Assembly (NCBI RefSeq): GCF_000703085.1
Contig: NZ_JNLL01000001.1
Span: 620,001-684,000, forward strand
Direction: 5' to 3'
Source: Persephonella sp. KM09-Lau-8
GTDB taxonomy: Bacteria; Aquificota; Aquificia; Aquificales; Hydrogenothermaceae
Length of the DNA stretch: 64,000 nt
The position numbers were made by a program, and so were the translations under genes. Below are positions 184 through 13,330 of this stretch, in pieces (position 1 is the stretch's first letter; every line of letters begins with the position of its first letter). Below the pieces are notes generated by a model. That model did no database searches. It saw only the letters and a program-made list of their open reading frames with translations, and was not told the origin of the DNA.

Positions 184-729
184 TTAAACCTCTTTTAAGA
201 AAAATTTCACAAATCTATTATCTTCAAAGCCTACTTGCCCCAATGGATTGTATGTTATGTAATTTCTTGTTTTTATGAATAATCTTTTATTTAAAGATAC
301 ATCTTCGTTTAAAATTTTTTTTGGTAAAATAAAAATGGAACCTCTATCTTCCTTTATTTTTTTCCAGTTTTCGTCAATGCTTATTGTTTCAGTTCCTAAT
401 ATAAGCTGATTTGTATCTATATATTCTATTTTTCCATTGTCGGATGGAATATCCTTTCTATAACGATAAAAATACTTATTCTTCTTTCTCCATATATGTA
501 ATTCTTCATCTTCGTTAAAAGCTCTAATTCTAAAAGTAAAGTCATAGTCCGGTTTTTCAAAGAAAAAAAGGTTCCTTTGCTCTATATACCCAAATAAAAT
601 TTGATAATCAAGCCACAAAACTACAGTTCCGTTATTAATAAGTTCTGTTATAAATTCAGGCGAAATTTTTTCTATTTGTCCTATATATGTTTCGGAATCT
701 ATATTTTTTTGGATTATGTATTCTTTCAT
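184..729 (-). CDS. csx19: Csx19-like type III-D CRISPR protein
   Basis: This 181-aa protein has the layout I associate with the Csx19 family (TIGR03984), a marker of type III-D loci. It has an early LWLDYQILFG segment, a central HIWRKKNKYFYRYR stretch, then DTNQLILGT and RGSIFILP, and ends with TRNYITYNPLGQVGF followed by NRFVKF. The molecular role of Csx19 is poorly known; it is taken as an accessory of the Csx10-containing effector complex. Its start overlaps the stop of the double-Cas7 gene by 4 nt, implying translational coupling. Family recognition is from motif memory, not a search. Confidence 0.75.
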   Translation of the reverse strand: MKEYIIQKNIDSETYIGQIEKISPEFITELINNGTVVLWLDYQILFGYIEQRNLFFFEKPDYDFTFRIRAFNEDEELHIWRKKNKYFYRYRKDIPSDNGKIEYIDTNQLILGTETISIDENWKKIKEDRGSIFILPKKILNEDVSLNKRLFIKTRNYITYNPLGQVGFEDNRFVKFFLKEV

Positions 730-2114
730 CTCCTTCCTCTTACACTCTTTATAAACTCGGATACAAAATTTTCCAATTCCTGCTTTATGTTCTCTTTATT
801 TCCTTTTATATCTAATTTCCCATTCTTATTTTCCAAAATTGCTTTTATCTTTTCCTCTCCTTTTTCATAAACTATTTTGGCAAATATTCCTTCAAATGTT
901 CCTCTACCAATATTTTTCTCTCCACCTATAGTAAGGTGTCCTGTCCATAAATCTTTCAATAAAAGTAAGAGTAAGCCGATATCTTCATCTTTGGCTTCTT
1001 CTATTTTTATTTTTACAAAAACTTTGTTGTTTTCTTTTGCCCATAGTGCAAAACTATCAAATAAAGCTGAATGAATTACTCCACCGGTAAATCTATCTAT
1101 TCTTATTCTGTTTTGTAATTTTTTTAAATACTCCTCTACTGTTGTTTCTTTTACATACATCCTGCTTTTTATTTTTTCTTTTGTATTTTCATCTGTGTAG
1201 CCCATCAAGTCTTTTACATATTCTTCTCCATTTCCACCTAAGGTATTTACAATTTTTACAGCCTTATTTCTTATAGCTCCTTTCACCGATGTTCCTGCTA
1301 ATACAGGTTTACCGTCACTTTCTATATGTGTTTTATCAGGAGCTTCAGGATTTGGAGAATAAGAACCTATGATTAAAGAATTTTTAATTTTTAGCTCTGC
1401 AGTTAGATAAAACGTATTTTTGTTTTTCTTTTCTAATGTATTTTCAGAAATTTTAGTTTTAGGATTTGTGTAAATTCCAGTTAAATAATTGATTGCATCT
1501 TCTTCATTACTAAAATCAAACTCATAAATTTCTATATTATTAAGTTTGATTTCACCAAATCCACGTGTAGTTATAGCTCCTACTTTTAGTTTTTCATTTT
1601 TTAGAATGTTTATTATAGTTTGAAGAATTTTATAAAGTTCTTCTTTCTTTTCATTGAATTCTTGTCTTAAAGTGAGTTCCCCTTGAAAACTAAATTCTAC
1701 TTGAGGTTCTAAAATTTCATAATTATATTTAGCTTTTTCTTCTGTAATTCCTATTTTGTTATTTATCTTAATTCCGTTTCTTATGTTTATTTTTCTTTTA
1801 ACTAAATCTTCATTTATAGGTGTTAAATCATTTAAAATAAAATGACTTTGATAGGTTTCTTTATTTTCATCAATTATATTGCTTCCCCAGAAATATTCAA
1901 AAGAATTACCATCTAAAACTTTATAATTATTTTTAATATAATGTCTCAATGCGCCGGCAAATGAGCTTGCTGGTATATAAGGAACCCCATTTTTATCTTT
2001 TATGATCTCTATATCTATTAAGTCTCCTTTTCCCTGCCCAATAATCAAAGGAGATGTATTTATTATTTTCCCTTTTAGGATTATCTTTCCCACTAACTTA
2101 TCTTTATTATTCAT
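726..2114 (-). CDS. Double Cas7 (Csm3-like) RAMP protein of a type III-D complex
   Basis: The 462-aa protein carries two RAMP domains. Domain 1 (about 1-195) has the Cas7 thumb region with D31 and D34, then PYIPASSFAGALRH, and ends in the Gly-rich TTRGFGEIKL. Domain 2 (about 236-415) has GSYSPNPEAPDK (D260), PVLAGTSVKGAIRN, and a terminal Gly-rich loop IGGEKNIGRGTFEG. Cas7 subunits form the crRNA backbone of type III complexes, and their conserved Asp residues cut bound target RNA every 6 nt. Two fused copies would fill two backbone positions. D31/D34 and D260 are candidate cutters. It overlaps the upstream csx10 stop by 8 nt. Confidence 0.85.
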   Translation of the reverse strand: MNNKDKLVGKIILKGKIINTSPLIIGQGKGDLIDIEIIKDKNGVPYIPASSFAGALRHYIKNNYKVLDGNSFEYFWGSNIIDENKETYQSHFILNDLTPINEDLVKRKINIRNGIKINNKIGITEEKAKYNYEILEPQVEFSFQGELTLRQEFNEKKEELYKILQTIINILKNEKLKVGAITTRGFGEIKLNNIEIYEFDFSNEEDAINYLTGIYTNPKTKISENTLEKKNKNTFYLTAELKIKNSLIIGSYSPNPEAPDKTHIESDGKPVLAGTSVKGAIRNKAVKIVNTLGGNGEEYVKDLMGYTDENTKEKIKSRMYVKETTVEEYLKKLQNRIRIDRFTGGVIHSALFDSFALWAKENNKVFVKIKIEEAKDEDIGLLLLLLKDLWTGHLTIGGEKNIGRGTFEGIFAKIVYEKGEEKIKAILENKNGKLDIKGNKENIKQELENFVSEFIKSVRGRR

Positions 2115-4305
2115 TCTTATGTCCTCTACGGAGTTTTAAAATAGTTTTGAAAAATGTAATCCAATAGTTTTTGTAAAGTTCGTTTTTTATATATTCGGTT
2201 AATACTTTATCTATCTCTTCTTTTAATAAATCTTCTTTTAATTTATTTTTAGTTTCTTGTAATATGTCGTTTATAGGTTTTTCGTAATTGATAAATTCAA
2301 TTTTTCCGTCGGGTTTCTTTTCAAAGGTGTCCGTTTTATCGAGCTTATCTTTTGCTAAGTTTTTTAACTTATTTAAGTTTTCCAATAGTTCTGTTTTGTC
2401 TTTAGAAACTTTTAGCAAATCAATTAATTTATTAATTAGACTATTAGACAGACTCTTGAATTTATTTTCTTTTTCTCGCGCATCTTGAATTGCTTTTGTT
2501 TCAATTTCAAACTTTAAGTAAGACAAAATCATATTTTTGAAAAGCTGATGTGGAATTGTCTCTAATTTTGGTATCTCTTCTTTTTCAAATTCTTCAAGCT
2601 CAAATTGTTCTTTATCAGGAAACCAATTTATTTTGATTTGCCCGTATCCTAAATTTGTAAATTCTCCTAAACCTTCTTTTTCTAACTCTTTTAATTTTTC
2701 ATAATCTATTTTTCCTACTATTATAAACGTTGAGCCTTCTGAATATGCTGAAAATGAAGAGGTTTTGGAAGACCAGGTATTTACATAATTCTCAACGCTT
2801 GTAGTTCTTGCAAAAATATCTTCTATTTCAAAACTATTTCCCAATGCCTCTTTTAAATATTTTTTTAAAGTTTTTTCGTTTAAATCTGGATATCCATTTT
2901 CATTTAGTAAAATAATAGGAGAAATGGCAGTTATACTTACTTTTTCTGATTTTGGAGTATTTATATCTATGTCAGATATATTTCCAAATTCTACTAAAAC
3001 TGTTCCGTATTGTGCTAATTTTGACCTTCCCATTTTTCCTAAAAATTCATTACCTAATATCTCTTTTAATTTTTGGAGTACAGCTTCATTACCTGAAATA
3101 TATCCTTTAAATGTTTGATTTTCTTCTATTGCTTCATAATAAAAAATTCCTGCGTCTGTGCTTCTACCTGCTGTTCTGTCTTTATATCTTGAACTGTGGA
3201 AAAACTGTTTTCTCTTTACAGGTTTTATAAATAGATTTTCATTTTCAAATTGAACAAATGCAGAAAAAGGTTTAATTTTTACATCTGATTTTTCAATTAT
3301 TTCTGGAATTTTTGCAACATTATAGGTTTTAGGATTTTCTTTATTCTCTTTTTGAATTGCATAACTATTTGGATAAAATTCTTTTTCATCTGCAGTAGGA
3401 TAAGCATTTTTAAATTTTGTTGCTTCTGATAAAAATAAAGATTTAAAGAAATTATTTTTGTGAGGCTCTTTCAGATTTAATTTTTCTATTATAATATTCG
3501 CTAACATTCCTCTTATGCTACTTCCTGTTATATAACCTTGCGTATTTACCGTATTTTGTTCGCCAATAGCTTTTGAAATTATAACTGGTGATAAGGTAGT
3601 TATTTTAAATTCTATCTTTTTAACAGAGGATTTTTCGTTATTTAAGTTCACGTCTGCATAATTTTTCCTATTTTTTTCTACCTCCTTATTTTCCTTTAGA
3701 ATTTTAATTGCTTCTTTCAAATCTGTTTCTAATTCAGGTAAAACTACTTCTATTTGTCCGAAACCTCTATTTCTTCTCAATCCTATTCTTTTCAAATTTT
3801 GTGCTGCGAGAAGTAGCAGTGCTTCCTCTTTTTTAGTAAGTTCTTTAGCTTTTATTTCTCCTTCAAAGGTCATATTTTTATCTAAAACTCTATATATTCT
3901 TAACGAACCTTCTTTTGCTACGCCTTTCTCATCTATAGATGTTTGTTGAATAATAGAGGTAAAAACCTCTAACACATGGGATTTATCAAAAATTTCTTCA
4001 GAAGAGAGAACATATTTTAAGAATGTTGAGAAATCTTTATAATTTTCAATTTTTAAATTTTCAAAATCAAGTTTTGCTTCTTTATCTCTATCTGGAGAAC
4101 CAAACAAAGAAAAAAAAGTTTTCCTATCTTCAATATTTAAGATTTCTAAAACTTCCAACGCACTTTCTTTTAAAAGCCCTTTTAATCTTTTGGCAGGAAT
4201 ATAAGGGAGGTTTTCATTATCAAAAATAATGTCATTATCAATGAGACCCGATGGCTCACCTGATGATATTAATGTCGGAGATAAGGTTTTAATTTTTATT
4301 TTCAT
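2107..4305 (-). CDS. csx10: Cas7-Csx10 fusion RAMP protein (type III-D)
   Basis: A long 732-aa multi-RAMP protein. Residues 1-190 are Cas7/Csm3-like: DNDIIFDNENLPYIPAKRLKG near the start and a Gly-rich loop GLRRNRGFGQIEV at 175-187. Residues 230-440 look like Csx10: GYITGSSIRGMLAN at 257-270, FKNAYP near 298-303, the FFHSSRYKDRTAGR segment around 368-381, and GKMGRSKLAQYG at 423-434. A third RAMP-like unit (455-562) ends in NLGYGQIKINW, followed by a Lys/Glu-rich helical tail. Csx10 is the Cas5-related subunit of type III-D complexes that should cap the crRNA 5' end. Fusion to Cas7 fixes part of the subunit order. It starts 3 nt after cas10. Confidence 0.8.
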   Translation of the reverse strand: MKIKIKTLSPTLISSGEPSGLIDNDIIFDNENLPYIPAKRLKGLLKESALEVLEILNIEDRKTFFSLFGSPDRDKEAKLDFENLKIENYKDFSTFLKYVLSSEEIFDKSHVLEVFTSIIQQTSIDEKGVAKEGSLRIYRVLDKNMTFEGEIKAKELTKKEEALLLLAAQNLKRIGLRRNRGFGQIEVVLPELETDLKEAIKILKENKEVEKNRKNYADVNLNNEKSSVKKIEFKITTLSPVIISKAIGEQNTVNTQGYITGSSIRGMLANIIIEKLNLKEPHKNNFFKSLFLSEATKFKNAYPTADEKEFYPNSYAIQKENKENPKTYNVAKIPEIIEKSDVKIKPFSAFVQFENENLFIKPVKRKQFFHSSRYKDRTAGRSTDAGIFYYEAIEENQTFKGYISGNEAVLQKLKEILGNEFLGKMGRSKLAQYGTVLVEFGNISDIDINTPKSEKVSITAISPIILLNENGYPDLNEKTLKKYLKEALGNSFEIEDIFARTTSVENYVNTWSSKTSSFSAYSEGSTFIIVGKIDYEKLKELEKEGLGEFTNLGYGQIKINWFPDKEQFELEEFEKEEIPKLETIPHQLFKNMILSYLKFEIETKAIQDAREKENKFKSLSNSLINKLIDLLKVSKDKTELLENLNKLKNLAKDKLDKTDTFEKKPDGKIEFINYEKPINDILQETKNKLKEDLLKEEIDKVLTEYIKNELYKNYWITFFKTILKLRRGHKNE

Positions 4306-4308
4306 TTT

Positions 4309-5745
4309 CTAAACCTCTTCTAATTCAAATGGATAGAATTCCATTAGTTCCAAAGCTTCTATAAAATTACTTTCTTTTAAATCCTCTGGTAAATTTTTAC
4401 CTGTTAAAGCCTCTATTTCATCTTTAAATGTTTTAATTCTTTCTTCGCTACTGTAGAAGTACATCTCTCTTAATTTCATTAGTTTTGTTCTTGGGAATTG
4501 AGAAAGTTGTTGTGCTAACTCTTTTAATACACTGAAACTATCCTTTCTATGGTCGTTAAGACAATAGCCATTCATAAAAAGATTCTTCCCATATCTGGTT
4601 TTGAAGTTTGTGTTTCTTATTTCTTCTATACTCCCGGTATATCCTGAAGATGAAACAAAAAAGTCCAAATAAGAACCTTCTTTTTCTTTAAACTTCTTTT
4701 TTGCATTTGAGGTTAGTTCCTCTGCCCACAAATATGATCTATAAAAAGGATATTTTGTTTTTACAATAGATATCCCTCCACAAGCTGTAACATTCTTTCC
4801 ATCTGGTAAGATTCCTTTTTCAAATTCCTTGATAAAAATCTCTGTAAGCCATATTCCTAATTTGCCGTGAGAAACAAATGTTATATCGTCTCCACCAATT
4901 ATGATTGGTCTGAAAGGTAAAACAGTTTTTCCGTTTTCTTTCTTTAACTCAAAACCATTTTCTTTTGTAAAATACTCCTTTTTGTTTTCTATTTTTTCTA
5001 TTAAAGTATCAAGCATTTTTTGGAAGGCATTTCTGGTTATTTGGGAAAGTTTTTCTGAAAATTCTTTCATATCTTTTAAGGATTTTATCTTTTGTATTCT
5101 TTTTCCTATTGAGTTTCCATCTATATGAACTACAGCTATATAGCTTTTTTCTGATTTTTGCCCTAATTTATTTATTTCTAATGTAAAGGTGTAATTTGGG
5201 TATTTTTTCAAGAATTCATTCAGTTCTTTTATATCTTTGGAAGCTTCTATTTTGGATTTTGATACCATTGATACAAAGTGATTTTCGTGTTTGATTTCCG
5301 CTGAGTAACCAGATAAAGGACATTCTGCTGTGATACCATGTTTTTGAATAACTACTTCAGGGAAGTATATATTCTTATTTTTTTGTAATTGTTTATGTAA
5401 GTTTTTTATAGATTCCTGATAATAAGGCTCATCAACTCTGAAATTCTCTTCAATAGCAAAAGCTGTTTTTAAAGATGGATATTTTTTCAGTAAGTTTTTA
5501 GTATAACTTTTTATAAAACTTATAGCCTCATCTCTTGTGTTAAATAGTATTAAAGCATTTCCTCCACCTTCATATCCCAATTTTGCATCAAAATTTTTTA
5601 AAATCTCATTTAACTCCTCTTTAAAAATTCTTTTAACAATATTTGATGCACCTACATTTTCTTTTAACTTATTACTTGAAAATATATATTGCTGAATGGA
5701 TATTGTATCTATAAGAACAGCTACATTTTTTTCAAAATTTTCCAT
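4309..5745 (-). CDS. cas10: Cas10-like cyclic oligoadenylate synthase, short form without HD domain
   Basis: The large-subunit signature is clear: a second palm domain with HIDGNSIGKR at 207-216 and IIIGGDDITF at 281-290, so the GGDD cyclase motif (284-287) is intact. A first palm-like unit (about 1-110) has a degenerate YEGGGNALILF. There is no N-terminal HD nuclease and, at 478 aa, it is much shorter than Csm1 or Cmr2. Between the palms only one Cys (C142) remains where Cas10 often has a four-Cys zinc site. By family knowledge it should make cyclic oligoadenylates when target RNA is bound, which suits the SAVED-protease effector gene 16 nt upstream. DNA cutting by this subunit is not expected. 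The SD GGAGGGAG supports the start. Confidence 0.88.
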   Translation of the reverse strand: MENFEKNVAVLIDTISIQQYIFSSNKLKENVGASNIVKRIFKEELNEILKNFDAKLGYEGGGNALILFNTRDEAISFIKSYTKNLLKKYPSLKTAFAIEENFRVDEPYYQESIKNLHKQLQKNKNIYFPEVVIQKHGITAECPLSGYSAEIKHENHFVSMVSKSKIEASKDIKELNEFLKKYPNYTFTLEINKLGQKSEKSYIAVVHIDGNSIGKRIQKIKSLKDMKEFSEKLSQITRNAFQKMLDTLIEKIENKKEYFTKENGFELKKENGKTVLPFRPIIIGGDDITFVSHGKLGIWLTEIFIKEFEKGILPDGKNVTACGGISIVKTKYPFYRSYLWAEELTSNAKKKFKEKEGSYLDFFVSSSGYTGSIEEIRNTNFKTRYGKNLFMNGYCLNDHRKDSFSVLKELAQQLSQFPRTKLMKLREMYFYSSEERIKTFKDEIEALTGKNLPEDLKESNFIEALELMEFYPFELEEV

Positions 5746-5761
5746 AAACTCCCTCCACTAA

Positions 5762-7288
5762 TCAAAATGGACTTGCTATATTCTGAGTTTCAAATACTTT
5801 TTCATATTTTTCCTTCGGCTTTGCATCTTTATTTTTCAAAGAATATACAGGCACATTTATTACATGACCTATTGCCATACCAAGGGCAAAGCCTATAACA
5901 GTAGGAGCACTCATAAATAAATGGAATTTACTAATTTTTTTGTCATCTCTAAGTTTGGTAATTATCGAGTTAATTTCTACAACATATTTTTTCCAATCTT
6001 CATTCACAGGTAATTTTCCTTGGTTATCTTTTAAGCTTATACCTATAACAGGCATATTTTTCCCATTTTCCTTTAGATAGTTTTCAACATCAGAATACAA
6101 AGGATGACTTGCTAAATGAATCGCCAATGCAACTTCCGAATAATTATCACTTTCAGGAATGGTTATATCACAATATTCAGGATTTTTTAATACATTGTGT
6201 TTTATTTCTTTTAAGCTTCTTAAACTTTCTGAATCTTCTAAATTTAAAACAGGATAATAAACTTTATCTTTACCTGGTTGATAATGATACAAGATACAAG
6301 GTTGTCTGGAACCAAATTTAACCCCAAGTCCAAAAGCTAAAGATGTAATTCCTGTGGAGATATGAAAAACTACTGTTTTACCTGCTTTATCTAAAATTTT
6401 TCTTATTTTGGGTTCAAATTCTTTATTTATATAATCAGTCCAAAATTCCTCATTTAACGGTAAAAAGTCTGGATAGTGAAGTGTGATATCTTCAGGACAT
6501 ATATCATAAATATTTTTTAAATTTTCTAAACTTAAATATTTTTCTATTTTATGTATTTCTTCTACTAAATCATTTAAAGCTTTGTTAACATCTTTATTTG
6601 CAAGCTGAATAAAAGGGACTGGTATGTGTTTTCTTCCTATCCAGAAATCAAGTTCTTCAATTTCCCTCACTTCTTTAGGTGATATTAGTTTTTTCCTTTT
6701 TTCTTCAGCAACTTTTCTTTTTTCATCTATAGCTTCAACTTCATAAATATCTCTGTCATTACCTATAACTCCTGTAAAAGCGTATCTATTTAAGGTTTCT
6801 TGAGGATAATTTAACGCTGCATATAGAGCTAACATAAAAGAGTTATGCTTAAAGTTATCGCCAAATATTACAAAGAAATTTTTTTGAGTTATTTTTTTTA
6901 TTGTTTCTACAGCTTTTTTTATGTCTTTATCATTTGTAAGGACAACTGGCTCATCATGTTTTTTTAGTTCAATAACTATCATTTGTGAGAGTTTTGCTTT
7001 GTTCCTATTTGGTGAATACACAGGGAAATATGAAACTTTATAATCTGATTGGAATATCTCAAATACTATATTTTCAGGGAGTTCTAAAACTTTTGAAAGT
7101 AGAGGAATATCAAAAACTTTAGGATATTTTCTTATACTTTTATACAGCTCAAATTTTACTTCATTATCATCACTTTTAAATAACTGATAAAACTCTTCTA
7201 ATTTATTTTCAAATTTTCCATCTTTTATTTGAGATATTAAGAATTTTCTATCTAATTTGTCATTTAAGGCATTTCCTATAGAATTCAT
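5762..7288 (-). CDS. calpL: CalpL-like CRISPR-associated Lon protease with SAVED sensor domain
   Basis: The 508-aa protein has a Lon-like protease region (about 85-260) and a C-terminal SAVED-like region (about 290-500, with FHISTGITSLAFGLG and FHLFMSAPTVIGFALGMAIGH). The likely catalytic Ser is S150 in GDNFKHNSFMLALYAAL, matching the Ser strand-helix of Lon; the Lys is K190 or K192 in EVEAIDEKRKVAEEK, about 40 residues on, as in Lon. The family member CalpL of Sulfurihydrogenibium binds cyclic tetra-adenylate through SAVED, oligomerises and cleaves CalpT. The adjacent CalpT-like and sigma genes and the cyclase-competent Cas10 support the same role. It starts 1 nt after calpT. Identity rests on domain pattern and context. 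Confidence 0.88.
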   Translation of the reverse strand: MNSIGNALNDKLDRKFLISQIKDGKFENKLEEFYQLFKSDDNEVKFELYKSIRKYPKVFDIPLLSKVLELPENIVFEIFQSDYKVSYFPVYSPNRNKAKLSQMIVIELKKHDEPVVLTNDKDIKKAVETIKKITQKNFFVIFGDNFKHNSFMLALYAALNYPQETLNRYAFTGVIGNDRDIYEVEAIDEKRKVAEEKRKKLISPKEVREIEELDFWIGRKHIPVPFIQLANKDVNKALNDLVEEIHKIEKYLSLENLKNIYDICPEDITLHYPDFLPLNEEFWTDYINKEFEPKIRKILDKAGKTVVFHISTGITSLAFGLGVKFGSRQPCILYHYQPGKDKVYYPVLNLEDSESLRSLKEIKHNVLKNPEYCDITIPESDNYSEVALAIHLASHPLYSDVENYLKENGKNMPVIGISLKDNQGKLPVNEDWKKYVVEINSIITKLRDDKKISKFHLFMSAPTVIGFALGMAIGHVINVPVYSLKNKDAKPKEKYEKVFETQNIASPF

Positions 7289-7289
7289 T

Positions 7290-8201
7290 TTAAACCTCTA
7301 TTTTTAAATTATCAGCTATGAATTCTATGCTTACATTTTGTAAATTCTGAGGAATTTTTATTTTAAATACCTCTGGAATGGTTCCCTCTATAGTTTTGCC
7401 AAAAATGTGAATTTTCCCTTTTTTTCCTATTAAGTCTTTATTTGTTATTTTTACAGTTAGTTCATTACCTTCTTTCATCATCTTAAAATCTTTCCTTTCT
7501 GCAAATAGTTCTCCTTCTGCAGCATAGGCAAGATTCGGAATCTCTATACTATCTTTTTGCTCTTCTAAGCTTTTATAAAGTAACTCCTCTAGAAAATCAA
7601 TTTCCGCTTTTTCTTCCAAATCATCAAAATATCCAAATATCCTTGCTTTGTATTCTTTTACGTCTTCTACTTCGTCTTCTTTAAATCTGTTTTGTATAAA
7701 ATTGCCATCTTCCAGTATGGCAAGTCCTCTTTTTTCAGGAGGAATTTCTATGCCTTCGTCTAAAATTTTTAGCAATAAATCTATGTCTTCATCAGTTAAC
7801 TTTCCTATATATACTGCCTTTTCAATTTCCTCCAATGGTATATAAAACTCGTTCCAGGTCTCTACCATATACGGAAGCTCATTAAGCTCAAATATAAAAT
7901 CTTCCTCAGTAGCAAAATCCACAAAATCAGATACTTTATAAACGGAATAAAGATTTTGGCTGCTGCCTTCAAGCTTCCCATTTATCATGAAAAATATAGG
8001 TATTCCTCTTTCGGAAATTAGATAGTATATTTCTCCAAACTCAAGGTCTGGTTTAGGTTGTGTGCTTTCTTGGAGTGTTTGCTGTAGTTCCATAAATTTA
8101 TTTTTTAGTTTATTCCTATCTATTTCTATATCTTTGAGTTCAGGGATAGGATTTTCCTTTTGCTCTTTGTAAAGTCTATATAAATCTTCCAGATATCTCA
8201 T
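7290..8201 (-). CDS. calpT: CalpT-like substrate of the CRISPR Lon protease (MazF-related, sigma-holding)
   Basis: The 303-aa acidic protein sits between the sigma gene and the Lon-SAVED gene, the position of CalpT in the known system. Residues 50-125 form a MazF-like beta unit (LEFGEIYYLISERGIPIFFM, then VETWNEFYI). Residues 126-220 are helical and very acidic. A linker IPNLAYAAEGELFA (221-234) precedes a separate beta domain (235-303). Published CalpT is cut in a loop to a large N-terminal and an about 10-kDa C-terminal piece. Cleavage near A227-A228 here would give similar pieces, but the site is my inference. SD GAGGTAAG lies 6-7 nt before the ATG. Confidence 0.7.
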   Translation of the reverse strand: MRYLEDLYRLYKEQKENPIPELKDIEIDRNKLKNKFMELQQTLQESTQPKPDLEFGEIYYLISERGIPIFFMINGKLEGSSQNLYSVYKVSDFVDFATEEDFIFELNELPYMVETWNEFYIPLEEIEKAVYIGKLTDEDIDLLLKILDEGIEIPPEKRGLAILEDGNFIQNRFKEDEVEDVKEYKARIFGYFDDLEEKAEIDFLEELLYKSLEEQKDSIEIPNLAYAAEGELFAERKDFKMMKEGNELTVKITNKDLIGKKGKIHIFGKTIEGTIPEVFKIKIPQNLQNVSIEFIADNLKIEV

Positions 8202-8236
8202 TTTTGTCTTACCTCAGATTTTCTTGTTTCTACCAA

Positions 8237-8917
8237 TTAACGAAACTTATCACATATTTCTGACATCAAGTATTCCTGGACAAAATAAGTAAATCCTTCT
8301 AATGAAAAACCTTTTTCTTTAACAAATTTAGTTAAAGAACTTTTTAATCTACTTTTTCTTTTGTATGCCGCATCATCAGAAATATCTTCACCAAAAAAGT
8401 TTTTATCATTGAAAAACATATAACAAAGTGTTCTTTGTTCTGTTTCTGAGAATTCTTTTTTTATGGTTTCTGCTATTTCTTTTGCTTCTACAATTACTAC
8501 AAGACTTACATCTTTATTTAGAGTAAGTATTTCAAACTCTTTTCCTTCTTCATTTTCTTTAATTAGTTGTGTATCTCGTGGCTTTTTTTCTTCTGTGTAA
8601 TATTTTTTAAGAATTTCCCTTTGGTTTGTTCTTAAAAAGTTATGTATTGCTTGGTATATGTATGAAACTATGTTAGTGCTCTTGTCTTTTATTTTTTCTT
8701 TTAAGGTGGGATTAAGAGAAAAATTTTGTTTAAACAATACTTTGGTTAAAAAATCATTAAAAAGGTCTTCTGGTTCTGTGTGCTTTTTTAGTAATTCATA
8801 CTTACCAAACTCTTTTACAAAAATTTTAAATAGTATTTCGTAGCCTGTAATATTATCTGGATTATGAGGATTTAGTAAAAAATCAATAATATAAGAAAAA
8901 CTATCTTTATTGTTCAT
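8237..8917 (-). CDS. calpS: CalpS-like ECF-type sigma factor
   Basis: A 226-aa protein with an ECF sigma layout. A region-2-like helical part (about 40-100) includes EPEDLFNDFLTKVLF, comparable to the DAEDLVQEVF helix of ECF factors. A region-4-like part (about 150-205) has FSETEQRTLCYMFF, then AYKRKSRLKSSLTKFVKE as a possible recognition helix. In the characterised system CalpS is held inactive by CalpT and freed when CalpL cuts CalpT, turning RNA detection into a transcription response. The first 11 nt overlap the end of the MazF-like gene and the next gene begins 35 nt downstream. Which promoters it reads is not visible here. Confidence 0.75.
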   Translation of the reverse strand: MNNKDSFSYIIDFLLNPHNPDNITGYEILFKIFVKEFGKYELLKKHTEPEDLFNDFLTKVLFKQNFSLNPTLKEKIKDKSTNIVSYIYQAIHNFLRTNQREILKKYYTEEKKPRDTQLIKENEEGKEFEILTLNKDVSLVVIVEAKEIAETIKKEFSETEQRTLCYMFFNDKNFFGEDISDDAAYKRKSRLKSSLTKFVKEKGFSLEGFTYFVQEYLMSEICDKFR

Positions 8918-9599
8918 TTTTTTCCTCTATCTCTTTTAGTATCTTGTCTATATAGGATGTATCGCATTTCGCACATTTTTTGATTAGTTTGTAGTTTTCA
9001 TTATAAATTTTGCATTTTTCTTGTATAGCCTCTTTCTTAGAGGAAGCTTCTATATGCTCTAGTTCCTTTAAAAGTAAGATAGGAATACTAAATTCTATTC
9101 CTTTTATCCTAGTAATTTGTTTTCCTTTAACCTTTCTTTTAATTACTTCTCCAAAAATATAAGAATCTTTTTCTATAGAGGGCAAAAAGCATTCGTAAGT
9201 TTGAAACTTACAGTTACTTATACTAAAGTCTACTTTTTCAGTATCCTCTTTTTGATTTAGTTGAAATGTAGATAATGCAATAAATTTTACGTTGGGTGGT
9301 TTCACATTTGTAATAACTATCGGTCTATATTTTTTTCCTTTCGTTTCTTTTAAAAGATTATGTTTATTGGATGTCAAAACAATCTGATTTTGAGAAGCAA
9401 AATATAATGCACATACATTAACAACATACATTTCACCTTTTTTTAAGCTGATATACTTGAATACCTGCTTTCTATAATTTTTAACTTCTTTTTCTAATTC
9501 TTTTATTTCTTCTTTTAGTTCCTGATTTTCTTTTTTGAGCTGATAATACTCTTTTACTTTGCTATAAAGATATTTCCAGAGGAAAAAATCAAGTATCAT
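8907..9599 (-). CDS. MazF/PemK-like protein with N-terminal coiled coil, first gene of the CRISPR-signalling operon
   Basis: This 230-aa protein starts with a short hydrophobic patch (MILDFFLWKYLY) and a strong Leu/Glu/Lys coiled coil (about 15-50). A MazF/PemK-like beta core follows: LKKGEMYVVNV at 52-62 and GKKYRPIVITN to FIALSTF (about 88-112), which matches the KxGxIY...RPxVI...VxxAxxTS pattern of the fold. The tail has a CAKC pair (209-212). It is a second MazF-like protein beside the CalpT-like one and overlaps calpS by 11 nt. It could be a toxin, an RNA-binding subunit or an extra sigma-complex partner. Whether the RNase active site is intact cannot be judged by eye. Confidence 0.65.
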   Translation of the reverse strand: MILDFFLWKYLYSKVKEYYQLKKENQELKEEIKELEKEVKNYRKQVFKYISLKKGEMYVVNVCALYFASQNQIVLTSNKHNLLKETKGKKYRPIVITNVKPPNVKFIALSTFQLNQKEDTEKVDFSISNCKFQTYECFLPSIEKDSYIFGEVIKRKVKGKQITRIKGIEFSIPILLLKELEHIEASSKKEAIQEKCKIYNENYKLIKKCAKCDTSYIDKILKEIEEKNEQ

Positions 9600-10398: not shown

Positions 10399-10656
10399 AT
10401 GAAATTTATATTCTGCTATGATATCTCTGATAACAGAACCTTGAATAAAGTTGCAAAGAAATTACAGGAACACGGGATAAGAGTTCAATACAGTGTATTT
10501 GAAATAGATACTACTTATCAGAAAGCCGTAGAACTTCTTGAAGAAATAAAACAAATCATAAACCCAGAAACAGATAGAATATTCATGTATCCTGCAAATA
10601 GAAATCAAAAAGGTATAAAAAGGTTTGGTTTAATCCGCGGGGGAAGAATTATCTGA
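10399..10656 (+). CDS. cas2: Cas2 (first copy)
   Basis: The 85-aa protein has the Cas2 ferredoxin-like pattern: FIFCYDIS at 3-10 with the conserved Asp (D8), then GIRVQYSVFEID and a short C-terminal strand. Cas2 dimers bridge Cas1 dimers in the spacer integrase. It lies on the plus strand, convergent with cas1, and its last 27 bases overlap the 3' end of cas1. That opposite orientation is unusual for a cas1-cas2 pair. The IRVQYSVFE block is shared with the second Cas2 at 12424-12711, so both are recognisable members and not decayed. Confidence 0.92.
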   Translation: MKFIFCYDISDNRTLNKVAKKLQEHGIRVQYSVFEIDTTYQKAVELLEEIKQIINPETDRIFMYPANRNQKGIKRFGLIRGGRII

Positions 10657-11523
10657 AAAATTCGTTCTTAGGAATTTGCTTATTTTTTGGACTTCTTCAT
10701 CATAAATATTTTCATGTATCCATTTTAGCAGCTTTTTCAAATCTGTATTACTCAGGTAAACGCCTTTTTCTGTTTTAACAAATTCCATCTCATTTATATC
10801 AGTATTCTGTAAAAATTTGTAAACACTCATAGTTATTGATGGTCTTATTATTTCCATCAAGTCAGATACAAAAGCATGATGAACTCCCTTTTTCCTGTGC
10901 AAAAAACTCAAATATGGGTCAAATCCCCAAGAAAAAACTTCAGGCACTAATCCATTATAAAAAACCATATAAGCTGAGCTTAAAATAGAATTAATAGGGT
11001 CTTTAGGAGGGTTATAAGTCCTTTTGGTAAATTCAAGATTGATATCTTTTAGTAGTTTTCTAAATTTTTCAAACATTTTTGTGGATGCTACTCCTTCTAT
11101 ACCCAGTATTGTGTTAATATTTTGAGCTTTTTGGAGAGCCTTTTTATGTTCATAAATGTTGATATCAAATTCTTTTTCTATGTTATTTAATTTTTGTAGC
11201 ACAAATTCTTTAGCTAATTTGATGTTTTCTTTTTCATCAAAAAACTTTCTATATTGGGTTATGCGAATGTTTATATTACTTTGAGTTTTTGATGGTATAA
11301 GTATTCCCCTAAAAAATCCTGGGGAACTTAGAAAAACTATATATTTCTGATTATTTAATAAAAAATTTATCAACGGTTGGGTAATTTCTATATTTCCGAA
11401 TAGAAATATATTTTTAAATGCGGTAAGTGGATAAGATGATATTTTCTTATTGTCTTTGTAAACTGCAAGTTGGTTTTCTTTCCTTTTTAGAGCAATACCC
11501 TGGGTAAGAAAGTATAAATTCAT
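10630..11523 (-). CDS. cas1: Cas1 spacer-acquisition integrase
   Basis: A 297-aa Cas1 with the expected catalytic set: E143 in TILGIEGVAST, H209 in DPYLSFLHR, and D221/E224 in SDLMEIIRP. The N-terminal beta domain (about 1-75: LYFLTQGIALKRKENQLAVY, IFLFGNIEIT) and the alpha domain are both complete. The Cas1-Cas2 complex integrates prespacers at the leader-repeat junction. The C-terminal SDNSSPAD is encoded across the overlap with the convergent cas2. Upstream, 11 nt away, is the catalytically altered Cas1-like gene. Confidence 0.95.
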   Translation of the reverse strand: MNLYFLTQGIALKRKENQLAVYKDNKKISSYPLTAFKNIFLFGNIEITQPLINFLLNNQKYIVFLSSPGFFRGILIPSKTQSNINIRITQYRKFFDEKENIKLAKEFVLQKLNNIEKEFDINIYEHKKALQKAQNINTILGIEGVASTKMFEKFRKLLKDINLEFTKRTYNPPKDPINSILSSAYMVFYNGLVPEVFSWGFDPYLSFLHRKKGVHHAFVSDLMEIIRPSITMSVYKFLQNTDINEMEFVKTEKGVYLSNTDLKKLLKWIHENIYDEEVQKISKFLRTNFSDNSSPAD

Positions 11524-11534
11524 TTTCCTTCCCT

Positions 11535-12413
11535 TTAAAAATCTTCTAATTTTAATTTTCCTTCCTCTATTTTTTGGAAAGTATCTAAGAAATCGTTCAA
11601 CTTTCTTATCTGATTTATATTATGTAAGAATTTTTCTGCAAATATCTTTGTAATTACTAAAATTCCCTCTTTCTTGACAGCAAAGAGCTCAAAATCACTG
11701 TTTTTTAAGTATTTCAAATATGTGTCGACGGCATCCAAAGTCGCTTTTACTTTGAAAGGACTGAACAATAACACGGCAAAATCTGGATATGTTGGCTTGT
11801 TTAGGATATGAATACCTTGATATAGATTTATTTTATTTTTAGCCAGATAACTTGATATATATGCTATATACAAAGAATGAAAAAAGTTAATTACCATATG
11901 AGGTTTCCCTTTCTGTTGATAATTCCTGACAGTGGGTAGAGTATTATTTATCAAATAAAAACCTCTATACAATACACCATTCGCCAGAGCTTGAGTAAGC
12001 TTATAAGTTTCCTTTGTAGTTAAGTTGTGAAAAGATGTTAGCATTACTTTTTCTATCATATCCAGTTCTACAAAATAATGCTTAACTGAAAATCCTACCT
12101 GTCTTCTTAGGAATTTTAGATAACTTAAGGTTGAGTAATAGGCTTGTTTAAAGATAAATTTTGAGATTAAGTTTATATTTTTGTAAATTTTGCCTCTATA
12201 TCTGGGGATATGAAGAAAGTCTATATTTCCTTGTTGATTTATATGGAAAATAGGTTTGCGAATGTCGGTTTGTAGTTTGTTATTGGTAAATAAAAATATA
12301 TTTTCTATTTTGCTAATAGGAACCTCAAATTCATCTTCGCTGGATTTTAAATGTAGTCTATATTTTTTAAGGTTTATTTTTGTGTTTGGAGTAATGACAA
12401 ACAGATTTGCCAT
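11535..12413 (-). CDS. Cas1-like protein lacking acidic catalytic residues
   Basis: A start at 12413 is chosen because AAGGAG sits 6 nt before that ATG, giving 292 aa. The protein follows the Cas1 plan. A beta domain has NLFVITPNTKINLKKYRLHL, IENIFLFTNNKLQT and DFLHIPRYRGKIY. An alpha domain has INFFHSLYIAYISSYLAK, YQGIHIL and FAVLLFSPFKVKATLDAV. Against the intact Cas1 next door, the Glu of IEG is Asn (ANG, N145), the His appears kept (H202), and the Asp/Glu of DLMEIIRP become Leu/Ser (LLFSPFKV). It is thus probably an inactive paralogue that might pair with Cas1 or Cas2. The alignment was by eye; identity is good, function inferred. Confidence 0.75.
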   Translation of the reverse strand: MANLFVITPNTKINLKKYRLHLKSSEDEFEVPISKIENIFLFTNNKLQTDIRKPIFHINQQGNIDFLHIPRYRGKIYKNINLISKFIFKQAYYSTLSYLKFLRRQVGFSVKHYFVELDMIEKVMLTSFHNLTTKETYKLTQALANGVLYRGFYLINNTLPTVRNYQQKGKPHMVINFFHSLYIAYISSYLAKNKINLYQGIHILNKPTYPDFAVLLFSPFKVKATLDAVDTYLKYLKNSDFELFAVKKEGILVITKIFAEKFLHNINQIRKLNDFLDTFQKIEEGKLKLEDF

Positions 12414-12423
12414 GATATTCTCC

Positions 12424-12711
12424 TTAGATAAAGATATCTTCATTAATTGTTATGGCTATTTTGTTGCCTTCTTTTTTGGCTGATTTGTATTCTTCTTTGG
12501 TAAGTGGGTAGATTATGATTGTATCGTTTGGAGATGTGATATAGGGGGTGATACGTTTGATTAGGTCTTTTAGGGCTTTTTCTGAAATATAAAGTTCAAA
12601 AACACTATATTGCACTCTTATCCCGTATCTAAGGAGTTCTCTATAGAGTTTGTCTCTGTTTTTATCATCTGATATGTCGTAGACGAGTAAATAGTAGTTT
12701 TTCGAATACAT
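12424..12711 (-). CDS. cas2: Cas2 (second copy)
   Basis: A 95-aa Cas2 with YYLLVYDISDDKNRDKL (catalytic-type Asp) and YGIRVQYSVFELY. The ATG at 12709-12711 is preferred over an earlier in-frame start that would reach into the CRISPR repeat, because GGGGAG lies just upstream. It leads the minus-strand cas2-cas1'-cas1 run, 10 nt before the Cas1-like gene and 50 nt from the first repeat. It differs clearly from the 85-aa Cas2 at 10399-10656, so the locus has two distinct Cas2 proteins beside two Cas1-family proteins. Confidence 0.92.
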   Translation of the reverse strand: MYSKNYYLLVYDISDDKNRDKLYRELLRYGIRVQYSVFELYISEKALKDLIKRITPYITSPNDTIIIYPLTKEEYKSAKKEGNKIAITINEDIFI

Positions 12712-12761: not shown

Positions 12762-13330
12762 CTGACAATACCCTCAAAACAGCGGGTCAGTTCCAGCAGC
12801 TAAAATCGCAGCCTCTCTTGGATATACAGTGTATGCAGGGTCGCAATACCCTCAAAACAGCGGGTCAGTTCCAGCAGCTAAAATCGCAGCCTCTCTTGGA
12901 TATACAGTGTATGCAGGGTCGCAATACCCTCAAAACAGCGGGTCAGTTCCAGCTGGTACTTGCTTCCCGGGAATAGGTACCGGGGAGTAAAGGGTCGCAA
13001 TACCCTTAAAACAGCGGGTCAGTGCCAGTTATGAGCCGACTTATTTTTGACACATCAAAAGATGTCGCAATACCCTCAAAACGGCGGGTCAGTGCCAGTC
13101 CCCGTCCCCGGAGGGTAAAGGCCCACCGAACCTCAACTTTCGTCGCAATACCCTCAAAACGGCGGGTCAGTGCCAGTAGCGCATCTCCTATCGAGGCAGC
13201 CTACGGGGACCCTGTTAGTCGCAATACCCTCAAAACGGCGGGTCAGTGCCAGTCCCCGTCCCCGGAGGGTAAAGGCCCACCGAACCTCAACTTTCGTCGC
13301 AATACCCTCAAAACGGCGGGTCAGTGCCAG
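12762..13330 (-). CRISPR. CRISPR array: 8 repeats of 35 nt, 7 spacers (5 unique)
   Basis: Repeats start at 12762, 12840, 12918, 12994, 13064, 13142, 13218 and 13296. In plus sense they begin GTCGCAATACCC and end GGGTCAG(T/G)... as TTCCAG in the first three and TGCCAG in the last five. Spacers are 35-43 nt. Spacers 1 and 2 are identical, and spacers 5 and 7 are identical. The leftmost repeat is altered at its left edge (CTGA in place of GTCG), marking the trailer. Repeats 5-8 are uniform, marking the young, leader-proximal side at right. Transcription is therefore inferred leftward (minus), with repeats read as beginning CTGGCACTGACC and ending GGGTATTGCGAC. Confidence 0.95.

Follow-up and report, generated by a model that had tools for sequence, protein, structure and literature searches.

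The window, that is, the whole 64,000-nucleotide stretch of DNA that was analysed, carries a minus-strand run of three genes in the order cas2b-cas1'-cas1. The first gene, cas2b (12424..12711, 95 aa), was assigned using Pfam and a Cas2 tree; the second, cas1' (11535..12413, 292 aa), encodes a catalytically dead Cas1 paralogue characterized through its open reading frame, Pfam, profile comparison, and column alignment; and the third, cas1 (10630..11523, 297 aa), encodes an intact Cas1 in which Pfam and column alignment located residues E143, H209, D221, and E224. A second Cas2 paralogue, cas2a (85 aa; Pfam and Cas2 tree), is found on the plus strand at 10399..10656, convergent to cas1, whose end it overlaps by 27 nt.

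A CRISPR array of eight repeats, each about 35 nt long, occupies positions 12762..13330 and has no strand assigned. Its spacers include two identical pairs (12797/12875 and 13099/13253), and repeat-spacer units have therefore been duplicated; its repeat recurs elsewhere in the genome, in two small arrays at C1:531953 and C1:873044. The effector genes of a type III-D system (Cas7, Cas5/Cas7-like, Cas10d, and a CalpL-like CRISPR-Lon) are located on the minus strand at 726..7288.

Homology of Cas1' and its catalytic positions

The minus-strand cas1' frame is open over all 292 residues, its start is preceded by a strong Shine-Dalgarno sequence (TAAGGAG; TAAGGAGAATATC-ATG), and gaps of 10 nt and 11 nt separate the gene from cas2b upstream and cas1 downstream, respectively. 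A preliminary description of this DNA had likewise reported a strong ribosome-binding site and neither stop codon nor frameshift. The Pfam model Cas_Cas1 (PF01867) matched the first 50 residues of Cas1' with E=0.0024 and 17.5 bits, below the curated cut-off of 22.3; the PADLOC Cas1 model gave about E=0.002, no NCBIfam model matched, and BLAST aligned Cas1' with the neighboring Cas1 at the N-terminus only (31% over 89 aa, E=6e-4). Domain library searches returned no match to a nuclease family.

A query profile was built by aligning Cas1' with its one clear relative, encoded in genome G008. Profile-profile comparison with 17 intact Cas1 proteins gave E=5.9e-8 over 236 columns, and hhalign against 42 intact Cas1 proteins gave E=1e-11 over 263 columns, with a score of 84. 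Column-shuffled decoys (n=150, 17-Cas1 profile) scored 15.3 ± 2.6 with a maximum of 24.9, compared to 79-84 for Cas1'. When the C-terminal half was examined separately, it scored 28.5, with decoys reaching at most 24.8; most of the Cas1 signal therefore comes from the beta domain. An HMM built from both Cas1' proteins recovered Cas1 among 899 mixed ORFs with E-values down to 4e-10. The best match of Cas1' among solved structures was 2yzs, with a weak E-value of 0.034; P0002 also matches 2yzs as Cas1. AlphaFold2 gave a pLDDT of 37.7 for Cas1' alone and 34.1 when two Cas1 rows were added. Judged by these sequence comparisons, cas1' is a real and intact gene derived from cas1, with homology that spans the beta and alpha domains; the Cas1 plan first ascribed to it from the letters alone agrees with the profile matches, which lie far above the shuffled decoys.

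In a joint column alignment, the GIEG of Cas1 (IEG motif) corresponds to LANG in Cas1', with Asn replacing Glu, and the DLMEIIRP of Cas1 (DLMExxRP motif) to LLFS, with Leu and Ser replacing Asp and Glu. All these replacements had been read correctly in the preliminary description, together with the frame, the Shine-Dalgarno sequence, and the relationship to Cas1; its view that the His was apparently kept was rejected. Cas1' has no His at the position aligned with the catalytic His, the one in 'GIHIL' being two to three columns away, and all four catalytic residues are likewise absent from the G008 relative, the His column included. Cas1' has therefore lost all four. It still carries the R-x-Y ... 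N motif of Cas1 (RNYQQKGKPHMVIN compared with RTYNPPKDPINSIL), and no new invariant acidic cluster is shared between Cas1' and the G008 copy. Glu, His, Asp, and Glu are all present in the neighboring Cas1 (10630-11523) and in 17/17 intact Cas1 proteins examined, two of which have Asp for the first Glu. Such an Asp in the IEG motif (IDG, LDG, ADG) was observed in the Cas1 proteins of L071, L074, L079, and L160, which belong to the most distant family and keep the His and the Asp/Glu.

Dead Cas1 forms and paired Cas2 proteins in the phylum

Genome-level searches covered 136 genomes of one phylum, taken to be Aquificota from the preliminary description, with which the CalpL-like locus agrees. The protein search of these genomes yielded one clear Cas1' orthologue, in G008, which represents another genus of the same family; neither the genome nor the viral collections yielded relatives in single-protein searches, and tblastn of the dead Cas1 families against plasmids found none. 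The gene order in G008 is cas2a, cas2b, cas1', cas1; the window has these four genes too and differs by its convergent cas2a at the other end. The two Cas1' proteins share 33-35% identity. Both Cas2 proteins of the window pair with their G008 counterparts, cas2a with 99/94 support in the Cas2 tree and cas2b at 47% identity. In G008, the dead cas1 is split by a frameshift, which may reflect decay or an assembly error; the assembly consists of ~330 contigs and is presumed metagenomic.

When the loci around the proteins most closely related to the intact Cas1 were read, a second dead form emerged, family X, with 10 copies: nine loci (L045-L053) in eight genomes and a tenth copy that ends at a contig edge. 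The gene encodes 283-300 aa and is located upstream, in the order X-cas2-cas1-cas2; it overlaps cas2 by 23 nt (32 nt in one locus), and the overlap between cas2 and cas1 measures 4 nt in 9/9 loci. Family X proteins are full-length Cas1 homologues (E=1.5e-7 over 250 columns, down to 5e-8; decoy-controlled) in which the Glu is lost, the His is replaced by an invariant Asn, and the Asp and Glu are invariant, and their C-terminal part bears a basic motif, YFFYGNRFKR, that is strongly conserved. Family X thus resembles Cas1' as a dead Cas1 accompanied by cas1 and two cas2 genes, but differs in keeping the Asp/Glu, in lacking the R-x-Y-x-P segment, and in gene order. The family is under purifying selection, two recent pairs giving dN/dS values of 0.15-0.21 for X and 0.12-0.13 for Cas1, and its distances correlate with those of Cas1 (r=0.91, permutation p=2e-4).

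Family S, encoded downstream of cas2-cas1-cas2 in another family of the phylum, comprises proteins of 210-260 aa that match Cas1 in the N-terminal domain only (score 35 versus 14 ± 2 for decoys, maximum 23) and have a dN/dS of 0.19; it is probably a truncated Cas1. An apparently conserved C-terminal tail in this family was discounted as the antisense of an overlapping cas6, as seen at L055:8788-8874, and this overlap of the 3' end of the gene accounts for false tail matches in many genomes.

Two genomes from a more distant family carry the fourth form, of 272-273 aa in the order cas1'-cas2-cas2. At L079:4360-5734, it forms a three-gene run on the strand opposite to a divergent cas1 with a fused Cas2-Cas2. 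At L159:6045-7418, a dead cas1 and two cas2 genes have no intact cas1 nearby, and the cas1 with a fused Cas2-Cas2 of that genome sits on a separate contig (L160); this dead Cas1 may therefore form a separate complex of its own. Against Cas1, the window Cas1' and family X score 79 and 59, but only 32 against each other; the dead forms of the phylum may have degenerated separately. In every dead family, the best-conserved part is the N-terminal beta domain. With an orthologue in G008 and three further dead or probably dead families, conservation beside cas1 in relatives agrees with the earlier claim that the inactive copy is maintained. Separately, a 108-aa ORF at L162:6125-6451 consists of the Cas1 N-terminal domain alone (E=5e-21) and is followed by a CARF-like protein, with no cas2.

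The Cas2 tree placed the two Cas2 proteins of each module in separate clades, and the cas2a and cas2b of the window constitute a conserved, non-identical pair, a point absent from the preliminary description. Cas2-Cas2 fusions of 210-212 aa occur next to cas1 in three genomes (L071:12061-12696, L073:4334-4972, and L079:6418-7050); the N half of the fused protein is most like the shorter Cas2 paralogue. In a tree of the 42 intact Cas1 proteins, the partner type tracked the subclade, with 8 label changes compared to 18.5 in shuffles. A dead Cas1 is missing from a sister clade of the X-bearing Cas1 proteins, whose modules have two Cas2, and most members of the distant family carry only cas1-cas2-cas2. 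Close Cas1 relatives with two Cas2 also exist without a dead Cas1 (L060, L062, L063, and L067), and the dead partner is therefore dispensable. From the clade split, the fusions, and the clades without a dead Cas1, a Cas2 heterodimer seems to be older and more widespread than the dead Cas1.

Proposed role and competing explanations

In E. coli, only one Cas1 of each dimer catalyzes, as the preliminary description had stated for Cas1 dimers in general, and the other touches Cas2 (PMC10011333); in a type I-F complex, inactive Cas1 subunits line the repeat channel (PMC12259127). Given the one-catalyst-per-dimer rule of E. coli, a Cas1-Cas1' heterodimer would fit by analogy. Cas1' would resemble the non-catalytic E. 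coli subunit (Cas1b, PMC10011333) in performing no catalysis and contacting Cas2; the E. coli enzyme encodes both kinds of subunit in one gene, whereas Cas1' would be the product of a separate one.

We consider it fairly probable that Cas1' serves as a dedicated non-catalytic subunit, partnering the catalytic Cas1 on a Cas2 heterodimer. The split orthologue in G008, the run of L159 with no intact cas1 close by, and the Cas1 relatives that have two Cas2 but lack a dead Cas1 weigh against this reading. Cas1 dimerizes via its N-terminal beta domain. The preservation of this domain above all others, the shared operon, and the co-divergence of family X with Cas1 make a dedicated non-catalytic subunit the simplest reading. 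Cas1' would pair with Cas1 through the beta domain and take the place of the Cas2-contacting subunit of E. coli, and strand transfer at both spacer ends would be performed by Cas1 alone. The earlier interpretation of a maintained dead Cas1, conserved beside cas1, is retained here; a kept His is no longer part of it.

Known Cas1-Cas2 integrases have two-fold symmetry and must rely for spacer direction on the PAM, Cas4, host factors, or the leader (for symmetry and the orientation problem, PMC12259127). A Cas2a-Cas2b heterodimer would make the assembled integrase intrinsically asymmetric, and this asymmetry could fix the orientation of spacer insertion. The complete scheme, in which Cas1 and a dead Cas1' on Cas2a-Cas2b form an asymmetric integrase that arose by duplication and loss of catalysis, repeatedly in the phylum, and that fixes spacer orientation, is put forward tentatively, as conceivable rather than probable.

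Alternatively, Cas1' could act outside the catalytic dimer, in a DNA-binding Cas1'-Cas2 assembly of its own that captures prespacers, recognizes the leader, or restrains Cas1-Cas2. The self-contained dead cas1-cas2-cas2 runs of L159 and L079 and the basic motif of family X are compatible with such an assembly, and the two Cas2 paralogues of each module could represent two separate Cas2 homodimers. We regard this as rather unlikely, since the window, G008, and all X loci have the dead gene placed among cas1 and cas2 within a single operon, the gene overlaps of family X are nearly fixed, and the Cas2-Cas2 fusions indicate a Cas2 heterodimer.

That Cas1' is a functionless, decaying duplicate in this genome is very improbable: the frameshift in the sole orthologue and the fast divergence of the two copies would agree with decay, but the window gene combines an intact frame with a strong Shine-Dalgarno sequence and tight spacing, the R-x-Y...N motif persists, families X and S are under purifying selection, and four forms of dead Cas1 recur with the same module. 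We give hardly any credence to the idea that Cas1' has gained a different active site for another reaction on nucleic acids, such as trimming prespacers in the role of Cas4, for although cas4 was not seen among the genes read in the first 24 kb of the window and the Asp/Glu are invariant in family X, the window Cas1' lacks these residues, shares no new acidic cluster with the G008 copy, and matches no nuclease family.

Relation to known systems and neighboring genes

Cas1' is collinear with the Cas1 integrase (PF01867, TIGR00287; small type III-associated, Aquificota-like) over about 263 profile columns and, like it, shares its operon with cas2 and a CRISPR array; it differs from this integrase in the replacement of all four catalytic positions, and it falls under the Pfam cut-off and has no NCBIfam match. 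The inactive Cas1-solo group (Krupovic 2014, cited in PMC9755687) was the only inactive Cas1 found in the open-access literature. Its members are Cas1 homologues with non-conserved catalytic residues, as is Cas1', but lie outside CRISPR loci, whereas Cas1' belongs to an adaptation operon that also encodes an intact Cas1. Cas1-solo genes are defined by having neither cas2 nor a CRISPR array nearby; both lie near cas1'.

As in the preliminary description, which knew of no such split in this group, no account of an intact Cas1 with a dead paralogue as its partner was found in the open-access literature, which largely excludes subscription papers and preprints, and term searches of the 2025 classification did not turn up an inactivated Cas1. 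The dead families fall under curated cut-offs or match no curated model, and have therefore probably been overlooked so far. The presence of dead Cas1 proteins beside the same Cas1-plus-two-Cas2 module in these heat-loving bacteria suggests that one half of the memory-writing machine became a dedicated non-cutting component. If so, a homomeric integrase can turn heteromeric when a duplicate is inactivated, and with separate genes for each Cas1 and Cas2 subunit, each role would be testable by genetics.

Two further minus-strand regions of the window were noted. At 5762-8917, CRISPR-Lon (CalpL-like, SAVED/CARF-Lon) is followed by a weak CRISPR-T match; in this type III-D locus with Cas10d, a 226-aa gene takes the place of CalpS after CRISPR-Lon. 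Adjoining these Calp-like genes, at 8907-9599, a 230-aa protein has as its sole match the PADLOC model C3a162, of unknown function, and its N-terminus is coiled-coil-like.
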